This document shows positions 8,103 through 11,350 of a stretch of DNA of 36,349 nucleotides, one piece after another. The notes beneath the pieces were generated by a model. That model ran no database searches, was not told the DNA's origin, and worked only from the letters and a program-made list of their open reading frames with translations. Both the position numbers and the translations under genes were made by a program. Source of the stretch: Candidatus Erabacter solicola. Lineage in GTDB: Bacteria; Vulcanimicrobiota; Vulcanimicrobiia; Vulcanimicrobiales; Vulcanimicrobiaceae. Numbering within the stretch: the stretch's first letter is position 1; every line of letters begins with the position of its first letter. The stretch is from positions 5,486 to 41,834 of the forward strand of contig PLDY01000045.1 in the NCBI GenBank assembly GCA_003136895.1. Direction: 5' to 3'.

Positions 8103-9704
8103 CTATCCCCAGCGCAGTCTGTAGCGCGCATTGGGCAAGAGATAGACTCTTGAACGGTGATAGTCTAGGTAGACGGTGAAATTTCTCAGCAAGTCTTGCC
8201 CCAGCAAGCCATCGAAATCTTCACCCTCGAACGAGCGGCCGTCGTCTTCGGTCGCATAGAACAGCCAGCGCGGGAACGAGAGCGATCCGACGCCCAAACT
8301 CGACGCCTGGACCGGATGAAACCGAATCTTGCCGCCGACACCCCAAATGTGCGACACGAACGGCGAACTCGCGGTGATCGCATCGCCGAGACCTTGATCC
8401 TTCGTGTCTTTGGGATGGGCCGCGACGAAATCCGAAAAGAGCATGCTGCGGTCGGCGCCGGTGTCGAGAATGAAATGCTCGCCCTTCGCTTCGCCGACGC
8501 GAGCTTCGAGAATCGGCACGTCGTCGTCGAGCTGGATCGGAAGTTCGATCGCTCCCACCGGCGGGGTGAAGCGCTCCACGTCGATCGCCTCGGCCGTTCC
8601 ACTTTCGTAATCGATCGCGACGACACAGCCGGCGATGAAGTCGAATCCCAGCAATCCGGCAATGGGCGTCTGCTCGTCGGCCCACGTCTGAAAGAGCGCC
8701 GTCTCCGCCTCGACGTTGGTCACCTTGATGCCGTTAAACGTCATCAGCGGAATGATCGCGTGACCGGCGACATACACTCCGGCCGTCGCCTCCGTCGATT
8801 TCCCAAACGTTTCGATCTTCAGCGCGTCGGCGACCGAGCGATCGAGTAGTATCCCCGACGCCCCGGAATCGAGTTGAAAATTGACCTTATGTCCACCCAT
8901 CTCGGCGGTGATGATGATCCGGTCGCCGATGATCTTTATCGGAAGCTTGACGCGCTCGGCCGGCATCGCGACGGGGTTGCGTGCATCGGGGGGGATTTGC
9001 AGCCGCGCATCGTCGACGGACTCGTTTGCCGAGTACGACTTCAATGTCCAATCTTCGTCATTGTACTGGCGTCCGTCGCTGACGCGAAAATGCCAGGGGC
9101 GCGTGACGCCGTCGGCGGTTCGGAAATCCTCGAACGTGGTAACGACGCGCTGGTCGTAGACCGCGCGCTCGCGCCGAACGAGCAAAAACGTCTTCTTGTC
9201 GTAGAAGCGATACTCGACCCGGCCGCCCGGCGGCGCGACCTTGACGACAAAGGCCTCCGGCGACGCCGCTTCACCGATCAGCGCAACGCCGTGCGTCACT
9301 CCATCGCTCGCCTCCGCCAGCGCTGCCACATTCCGGTCGTCGCGGTCGTGGATGCCGCCCTCGATGACCGTGTAGCCGCTGTACCCTTGGTGCCAGCTGC
9401 GTCCTTTGTAGCGTCCGGATGCCGAATGGAGTCTCGCGTAGGTGCGGTCGTACCGGTACTCGTCGCCCGCATCGAGATCGGTCTCCGTTCCCGAGATCTC
9501 GCCGTCCCGAAAATCCCACGCTTCTAGCGTCGCGCGCGCCTCGGCTCGCAACGTTCCGCGCGCGCTCTTCGCCTGAAGCAGAACGTGGTCGAGGGTTTCG
9601 GTCGTGGGTGAAACGGCCGGCGCCGACGACGGATCGCTTTTAGCCTCCGACGCACTCGCCGCTAAGAAACACGCAGCGGCGATGCCCGCAAGACAGTGCC
9701 GCAT
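8103..9704 (-). CDS. Exported retropepsin-like aspartic protease with two DxG motifs
   Basis: The 533-residue product has a signal peptide (about 1-22). Residues about 35-235 form a domain that looks like a LolA/LppX-type beta sheet, with alternating charged beta strands and the ending TRPWHFRVSD. Two retropepsin-like domains follow. The first has D279 in FQLDSGASGILLD and a flap/FDF region near GLLGFDFI. The second has D414 in FILDTGADRSML and ends with DGLLGQDLLRNFTVYLDY. Both catalytic D-S/T-G triplets are intact, so a single-chain enzyme that pairs its own lobes is plausible. The ATG at 9704 overlaps the stop of the upstream paralogue (TGATG). An open frame continues further upstream but lies in that gene. 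It is probably periplasmic or surface-exposed, with unknown substrate. Confidence 0.88.
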   Translation of the reverse strand: MRHCLAGIAAACFLAASASEAKSDPSSAPAVSPTTETLDHVLLQAKSARGTLRAEARATLEAWDFRDGEISGTETDLDAGDEYRYDRTYARLHSASGRYKGRSWHQGYSGYTVIEGGIHDRDDRNVAALAEASDGVTHGVALIGEAASPEAFVVKVAPPGGRVEYRFYDKKTFLLVRRERAVYDQRVVTTFEDFRTADGVTRPWHFRVSDGRQYNDEDWTLKSYSANESVDDARLQIPPDARNPVAMPAERVKLPIKIIGDRIIITAEMGGHKVNFQLDSGASGILLDRSVADALKIETFGKSTEATAGVYVAGHAIIPLMTFNGIKVTNVEAETALFQTWADEQTPIAGLLGFDFIAGCVVAIDYESGTAEAIDVERFTPPVGAIELPIQLDDDVPILEARVGEAKGEHFILDTGADRSMLFSDFVAAHPKDTKDQGLGDAITASSPFVSHIWGVGGKIRFHPVQASSLGVGSLSFPRWLFYATEDDGRSFEGEDFDGLLGQDLLRNFTVYLDYHRSRVYLLPNARYRLRWG

Positions 9705-11350
9705 CACGTCTTCGGCATAACCTTGAAACGCTGCGAGAAGTGCGCGTTCGGTTTGAGGAACATGCGGTGATTGGCATAGTCGAGGTACATGTCGAAGTAC
9801 CACAGCATATCGAAACCGACGATTGCGTCCACATCGTGATCGTAGGGTGAGTCGTCGTTCGTGGCGACTACGGGCAACTTCACGAAATGCGCGGTCGAGA
9901 AGCGAAAATCCGGAACCTCGCTCAACCAAACCGCGAGCTCGCGCCCATACGTCGCGGAATCCGCAAACGGGACAACGGCCTTGCGCCGCGATTTTCCGGC
10001 GCTGTCCGGAACGGCGTCGGGGTGCTGATCGGTGAACGGCGCCATGATGAACGAGACTGGAAAACGGCAATCGATCAACATGTTACTCGCGTCGTGACCC
10101 CCGATCGAGCCGCTCGTGAACGGCAGGCCGTCGTCTATCGTCAGCGGGACGATGTATGCTCCCTTCAGGAGGTCATCCGTCAGCGCATTCTCCATCAGAA
10201 CTTCGGTCCGGCCGTTCACAAAGTCGATCTTGAAGACGCCGCTCTGCAGAAAGTCCGTGCCGAGCAATCCGACGATCTTCGTACCGTAATCCGCCATGTA
10301 GTTGAAGCTCACCGCGCGCAGCGCTACGTGATGGAGCACCACGGATTCTCCGACGCGCGCCTCAGGAATCTCCGTATCGTACCCAACGTGAGCACCCGTC
10401 TTTGTTTGGATCGTTTGCCCGAAGGTCGGCAGGTTGAGTTCGCGCGCTACGTCGCGATCGATGATCGAGACCGGCGCGCCGGTGGAGAGTTCGAAGTCGA
10501 GCCCGCGCCCGTTGACGGTGAGGCGAACGACGACCGTTTCGTTCGTGACCCGGCCCGCGACAATGCCGGGTTTATCAAAGACGCCCGGATTGAACGCGCC
10601 GGCCGGCGCCGCAAAGATCCCGGCCTCGACCGGCTCCCCGAGCGTCAACGCCGTGCGCATGAAATCGTCTTCGAGTCCGAGTTCGGCGACCGAATCGCGC
10701 ACGTGCCAGGGCTCCGTGTAGCCGTTTGTCGTCCGATAGTCCTCGTAGTAAGCGACGAGCCGGCGGCCGGCCACGCTCGCCTCGGTGCGGACGATCAAAC
10801 CGGATTCCTTGTCATACAGAATCCATTCGGGATGCTTTGCGCCTGAAAGGCGCACTTCGACAACGTAGGCGGGCTTCGGAAGCGCGATCTCACCCAAGAG
10901 CTTCGCATCGTTCTTGGGGTCGGCTGCGTCTTCTACGACGCGAAACATTGCGAAGCTCTCGTCGTCCGTGGTCGTCATCAGATAGACGTTGCCGTTGGGG
11001 ACCTTGTGCCAGCGGCGTCCTTCGAATTGTCCGTATTCCTCGCCGAACGGGCCGTGCTGGATGTGTGAGACGTAATCGAGACCGCGCCGAAAGAGCGTCT
11101 CGCTTCCGGCAAAACCGAGATCGTTCCGGGACCAGACCTCGCGGCGCGATTCCTGCAACCCGGGATGACGGCCGATCGCACTCTCGTGCTGTTTAAGGAC
11201 AGCTGCCAGTGTGGCAGCCGTCGCACTGATTCCGGTGGGAGGCGCGTCGAGGGCCTTCTCTTTTTCCGCCTTATCGTCACGCGCCGAAGCCGGCCCGGCG
11301 GTTACGATCAAGAGCAGTCCGACGAAAAATGCCAAAAACGAGCGTTTCAT
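9704..11350 (-). CDS. Exported retropepsin-like pseudoprotease, paralogue of the downstream gene
   Basis: The 548-residue product has the same layout as the next gene: signal peptide (about 1-23), an N-terminal domain ending TEPWHVRDS, then two retropepsin-like lobes (GLLGTDFLQSGVFKIDF and VGFDMLWYFDMYLDY). The active-site motifs are altered. The first lobe reads ELSTGAPVSIID, with S289 in place of the catalytic Asp. The second reads LIDCRFPVSFI, keeping D427 but losing the T/S-G. It is therefore probably inactive as a protease, and may bind peptides or regulate its partner. The start at ATG 11350 has a GAGG 12 nt upstream; a TTG four codons earlier is possible. The stop overlaps the start of the active paralogue, implying coupled translation. 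Confidence 0.85.
   Translation of the reverse strand: MKRSFLAFFVGLLLIVTAGPASARDDKAEKEKALDAPPTGISATAATLAAVLKQHESAIGRHPGLQESRREVWSRNDLGFAGSETLFRRGLDYVSHIQHGPFGEEYGQFEGRRWHKVPNGNVYLMTTTDDESFAMFRVVEDAADPKNDAKLLGEIALPKPAYVVEVRLSGAKHPEWILYDKESGLIVRTEASVAGRRLVAYYEDYRTTNGYTEPWHVRDSVAELGLEDDFMRTALTLGEPVEAGIFAAPAGAFNPGVFDKPGIVAGRVTNETVVVRLTVNGRGLDFELSTGAPVSIIDRDVARELNLPTFGQTIQTKTGAHVGYDTEIPEARVGESVVLHHVALRAVSFNYMADYGTKIVGLLGTDFLQSGVFKIDFVNGRTEVLMENALTDDLLKGAYIVPLTIDDGLPFTSGSIGGHDASNMLIDCRFPVSFIMAPFTDQHPDAVPDSAGKSRRKAVVPFADSATYGRELAVWLSEVPDFRFSTAHFVKLPVVATNDDSPYDHDVDAIVGFDMLWYFDMYLDYANHRMFLKPNAHFSQRFKVMPKT

Follow-up and report, generated by a model that had tools for sequence, protein, structure and literature searches.

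Why would a bacterium keep a protease paralogue with a degenerate active site directly in front of an intact one? The question is raised by a gene pair on the minus strand of the window, the 36,349-nucleotide stretch of Candidatus Erabacter solicola contig PLDY01000045.1 analysed here. The first gene (UP, 9704-11350, 548 amino acids) runs from an ATG at 11350 to a stop codon at 9704-9706, and the second (DN, 8103-9704, 533 amino acids) from an ATG at 9702-9704 to a stop codon at 8103-8105. The original prediction of two exported reading frames overlapping by one nucleotide in a TGATG agrees with these coordinates and with the sequence at 9702-9706.

9704..11350, minus strand: UP, putative exported pseudo-aspartic-protease, 548 amino acids (reading frame, Pfam, alignment, AlphaFold model)
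8103..9704, minus strand: DN, exported paralogue of UP, predicted to be catalytically intact, 533 amino acids (reading frame, Pfam, alignment, model)
9702..9706, minus strand: TGATG junction, in which the UP stop and the DN start share one nucleotide (sequence)

The orthologous junctions of 14 other pairs range from a 14-nucleotide overlap to an 11-nucleotide gap. Exactly 8 nucleotides overlap in 8 of the 14 (L043, L117, L118, L120, L121, L122, L123, and L124, most with a TAG stop), and since eight pairs share this value, the overlap length may itself be selected; the start codons of the orthologues were picked by eye, so individual overlap lengths could move. In the G054 pair, translating past the TAG stop places UP and DN in one frame. 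Both proteins of the window begin with a hydrophobic segment of the export type, as do UP and DN elsewhere wherever the starts are readable. Upstream of the window's pair lies a gene for an HD-domain protein, and downstream of it one for an S9 peptidase; in eight or nine genomes, genes on the opposite strand flank the pair, and the downstream neighbours are homologous and read from the sequence as purD and guaA. The conserved unit is the UP–DN pair itself. UP and DN are very probably co-translated; translational coupling is compatible with mere co-expression.

Based on AlphaFold2 models of UP (pLDDT 88.6, pTM 0.86) and DN (pLDDT 93.2, pTM 0.89), both proteins are predicted to consist of a LolA-like domain and a two-lobed pepsin fold.

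10601..11239, minus strand: UP LolA-like domain (about residues 38-250), conserved more than any other part of the protein (model, fold search, constraint comparison)
10181..10588, minus strand: UP pepsin-like lobe 1 (about residues 255-390; Pfam, model, fold search)
9731..10168, minus strand: UP pepsin-like lobe 2 (about residues 395-540), not detected by Pfam (model, fold search)
8985..9620, minus strand: DN LolA-like domain (about residues 29-240; secondary structure of the model, homology to UP)
8565..8957, minus strand: DN pepsin-like lobe 1 (about residues 250-380; Pfam, model, fold search)
8115..8552, minus strand: DN pepsin-like lobe 2 (about residues 385-530; Pfam, model, fold search)

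Pfam recognises both aspartic-protease lobes of DN but just one of UP, whose second, diverged lobe is visible by alignment. The families matched are Asp_protease_2, gag-asp, and, weakly, RVP. With PF13650 (Asp_protease_2) scores of 37.8 bits for UP and 65.6 bits for DN against a gathering score of 24.3, both proteins are members; against the models of the bacterial Asp_protease_2 and gag-asp proteases (PF13650, PF13975; clan AA), DN exceeds the curated cut-off in two stretches and UP in one. These families describe a single lobe, whereas UP and DN carry two lobes per chain behind a LolA-like domain, UP without the catalytic motif. Two lobes on one chain also set them apart from the MEROPS A2 retropepsins, with one lobe per chain and an obligate dimer.

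Compared with solved structures, the N-terminal domain of the UP model matches LolA3, NE2245, DUF1329, and LolB with probability 1.00, and in Foldseek the rest of it matches pepsins and the Bacteroides fragilis protein 9iy9. The DN model matches 9iy9, pepsins, and tethered HIV protease dimers (TM-scores of about 0.68-0.74, depending on the target). The closest solved structure is 9iy9, a two-lobed putative endopeptidase (sequence profile E = 4.5e-12, fold E of about 1e-12), and its sequence match spans the protease lobes only; to our knowledge it has no pseudo-partner. The Foldseek probability of 1.00 to pepsins describes a bilobed single chain with the pepsin fold. Pepsins (MEROPS A1) likewise have two lobes per chain with one active-site motif each, and the hydrophobic-hydrophobic-Gly motif is kept, but their identity to UP and DN in the fold matches is only 9-16%, and no A1 (Pfam Asp) match was found by sequence at the threshold used. 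The bacterial A1 pepsins described in PMC2761423 are also without a signal peptide, whereas UP and DN appear exported and carry the LolA-like domain. That domain in UP recalls the LolA/LolB/RseB-MucB fold (LolA3 9tp6, 3buu, LolB 8cm1, and, at a poor TM-score, MucB 6in8) but is fused to a protease in UP and DN, and by sequence no LolA family model was matched in Pfam or NCBIfam. Of the proposed layout of a LolA-like domain and two protease lobes, the three domains are thus upheld by fold, whereas the LolA likeness is not that of the sequence family.

The difference between the two proteins lies in the catalytic motifs.

10478..10486, minus strand: UP lobe 1 motif STG, with S289 (codon TCC) in place of the catalytic aspartate (alignment)
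10064..10072, minus strand: UP lobe 2 motif DCR, with D427 retained and T-G gone (alignment)
8862..8870, minus strand: DN lobe 1 motif DSG (D279), invariant in 16 of 16 DN (alignment)
8457..8465, minus strand: DN lobe 2 motif DTG (D414), invariant in 16 of 16 DN (alignment)

As had been proposed, the degenerate and intact motifs occupy equivalent positions: S289-T290-G291 and D427-C428-R429 of UP share alignment columns with D279-S280-G281 and D414-T415-G416 of DN. A single base error cannot account for S289, since TCC is two or three substitutions away from an aspartate codon, and the 15 orthologues in other genomes are likewise degenerate. Both aspartates are present in 65 of the 65 other family members examined and in 0 of 16 UP, a contrast for which the Fisher p is merely indicative because family members share kinship. 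D[ST]G occurs in both lobes of 62 of those 65 members and of no UP; all 16 DN have it. By this motif DN is predicted to be catalytically competent.

The wider family offers a background for this contrast. The window's genome (G000), a 2.9 Mb assembly, has about ten members of this aspartic-protease family (contigs C5, C91, C96, C102, C104, C136, C141, C146, and C172; loci L001-L008 and L152-L155), and proteins laid out in this way are present in no fewer than six further phyla (Nitrospirota, Zixibacteria, Eisenbacteria, WOR-3, Cloacimonadota, and Gemmatimonadota). The original view that the fusion of a LolA-like domain to a protease is uncommon is therefore not supported. The relatives in other phyla (L100-L115) are distant and mostly 620-700 amino acids long. 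Their lobe 1 reads D[STC]G and their lobe 2 DLG, DIG, or DVG, so that the lobe 2 motif retains the aspartate but not the Ser/Thr; two single paralogues (L138 in G011 and L149 in G073) resemble them in reading DSG/DLG. Tandem layout alone does not cause motif loss: D[ST]G is intact in all copies read from the arrays on G047 C19, G053 C162, and G014 C30. Some 0.7 kb behind a tandem of two intact copies lies a third, separately degenerate member (DST/DDT; L053:10161-11885, G047 contig 39), which may mark a second, independent origin of a pseudo-partner.

How regularly the active and the inactive copy occur together was assessed in 117 genomes of the class, searched with a profile of UP and then with a profile of DN. 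UP with readable motifs was found in 16 genomes, along with one UP fragment at a contig end (G109), and DN-type proteins in exactly those 16, their scores being clearly separate from those of the remaining paralogues (581.7 versus 528.2 bits). The two genes are adjacent, on the same strand, and tightly spaced in 15 of the 16; in G026 both lie at contig ends. Apart from the G109 fragment, no DN-type protein without UP and no UP without DN was found in the 117 genomes. The pairing of an active with a dead copy thus proved to be conserved, UP being dead and DN intact by motif in all 16 genomes, 15 of them with adjacent genes. A one-off duplication is ruled out by the presence of the pair in 16 genomes. 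Unlinked homologues with both copies active, named in the original prediction as counter-evidence, were looked for in this set and none was seen.

The hosts of the pair are soil bacteria of the phylum Eremiobacterota, and matching contigs of the named collection assign the relatives to Candidatus Eremiobacterota; a single-sequence scan of the named genomes returned no relatives, and an alignment-based search returned 28 loci. One 3,508,363-bp chromosome (G008) appears to carry a single intact paralogue (L036, DSG/DTG) and to lack the pair. In two genomes from a different family of the class (G054, locus L039; G041, locus L045), UP and DN nevertheless branch with the window's clade, either because the whole pair was transferred laterally or because it is ancient and was lost elsewhere.

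UP and DN are each monophyletic with support of 100, and their trees are largely congruent (mirror-tree r = 0.83, with 0 of 2000 permutations as high), a congruence that linkage and vertical descent would produce even if the proteins did not interact. Within UP the active site has degenerated in many forms. The lobe 1/lobe 2 motifs are STG/DCR in the window and SSG/DSS, SSG/DNG, SSG/DND, SAA/DND, STG/ANN, DPS/NTG, DTA/ANE (three genomes), DTS/ANE, DSS/STG, DSS/GSD, DSG/STS, DTL/TIE, and DSS/STT elsewhere. Exactly one aspartate is retained in 15 of the 16. The lobe 1 aspartate is absent in G026 and the window's clade, the lobe 2 aspartate in the other ten genomes, and both in G102 of the window's clade. 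A grouping of G026 with the window's clade is rejected (AU p = 0.009), a value that is indicative because the group was chosen with the tree in view. Remnants of the motifs persist: lobe 1 of the window's clade has S[ST]G, and the other clade has DSG (lobe 1) and NTG or STG (lobe 2). These remnants suggest a UP ancestor with both aspartates still in place and at least two later losses of activity along different routes. A scenario in which the lobe 1 aspartate disappeared early and was later regained requires an equal number of changes on the tree and is considered less likely.

Between closer relatives, pN/pS is 0.35-0.48 for UP and 0.38-0.48 for DN, values that are coarse because synonymous sites are near saturation; judged by them, purifying selection on UP is as strong as on DN. 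With its catalytic residues gone and its fold and selection kept, UP is, on the evidence of alignment and model, a pseudoenzyme.

Where the two proteins are constrained differs. The comparison was restricted to the 12 genomes with full-length UP and DN because incomplete sequences bias entropy. In the LolA-like domain, mean pairwise identity is 48% for UP and 39% for DN, and in the protease lobes it is 39% for UP and 51% for DN; other family members give 32% and 37%, respectively. All 66 genome pairs show the crossover, although the pairs are not independent of one another. UP has 48 invariant columns and invariant residues of its own, many of them in the LolA-like domain (for example D144, K146, and D148). 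This crossover, with UP constrained in its putative binding domain and DN in its catalytic part, is the main clue to mechanism.

The reading favoured here, with slightly more belief than doubt, is that the two genes form an operon for an exported aspartic protease system of two components, with UP as the binding or regulatory partner and DN as the protease. In such a system, UP and DN would be co-translated and would then assemble, or at least act jointly, outside the cytoplasmic membrane. Via its LolA-like domain, and perhaps its dead cleft, UP would capture a peptide or a hydrophobic or acylated ligand and would thereby present substrate to DN or control DN activity, and DN would perform the cleavage. 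A new kind of periplasmic or secreted sensor-protease can be suggested more tentatively: the pseudoenzyme UP, after independent inactivation in different lineages at one or the other catalytic aspartate, would be the ligand-sensing subunit, through its LolA-like domain, of an obligate complex with active DN, and the duplicates of a bifunctional ancestor would have split sensing and cutting between two co-translated chains.

It is rather unlikely that UP is instead a dedicated inhibitor, decoy, or folding chaperone that fills the DN cleft or keeps DN inactive until a signal arrives. Dead paralogues often act in this way, as the iRhoms do (PMC3149277), and UP is encoded first, directly before DN; the lobes that would imitate a protease or substrate, however, are less conserved in UP than its LolA-like domain.

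Slightly less credible is the proposal that UP merely shares DN's transcript as an independent binder of a lipid, acylated peptide, or glycan, with the pepsin fold as a scaffold. The plant proteins basic 7S globulin and conglutin gamma have a pepsin fold and are regarded as non-catalytic. Both are among the fold matches of UP, and the residues invariant only in UP would fit a binding role of its own. Unlike UP, which is paired with an active paralogue in an operon, these plant proteins stand alone. Against the proposal, DN-type proteins and UP are never separate in the class, bar the contig-end fragment.

That UP is still an enzyme, with changed chemistry or a migrated catalytic residue, is very improbable. 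The single aspartate held by nearly every UP could serve such a role, but it lies in lobe 1 in one clade and in lobe 2 in the other, the adjacent T-G is mostly gone, G102 has neither aspartate, and no shared candidate replacement residue was seen among the 16 UP. A functionless, decaying duplicate or a sequencing artefact has next to no probability: the variety of degenerate motifs resembles active-site drift, but open frames in 16 genomes, the invariant columns, and a codon change beyond one base error speak against it, and purifying selection, with pN/pS as low as in DN, rules out a decaying pseudogene.

The preferred two-component reading has partial parallels. Active and inactive protease paralogues are paired in ClpP/ClpR and in bacterial M16 proteases. 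Rhomboids and iRhoms similarly comprise a catalytic copy and a conserved dead paralogue (PMC3149277). All of these combine an active with a dead paralogue as UP–DN does, but they belong to other protease clans. RloA of Pseudomonas is a secreted retropepsin whose operon encodes RloB, an inactive transglutaminase (PMC12239564). It resembles UP–DN as an exported clan AA protease with an inactive enzyme homologue in its operon, but RloA has a single lobe and forms a homodimer, and the inactive protein encoded beside it comes from an unrelated family. In the open-access literature, no bacterial aspartic protease was found described as having an obligate dead paralogue, and no paper was found on aspartic proteases from Eremiobacterota.

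The clan AA protease, the LolA fold, and the pseudoenzyme are kinds already known; apparently new is the fixed pairing of an active with a dead copy among bacterial aspartic proteases. The dead UP has been kept in place despite loss of the active site by different routes, and the two paralogues are oppositely constrained by domain. With two exported proteins of about 500 residues each, the pair makes the question of why pseudoproteases are retained directly testable.
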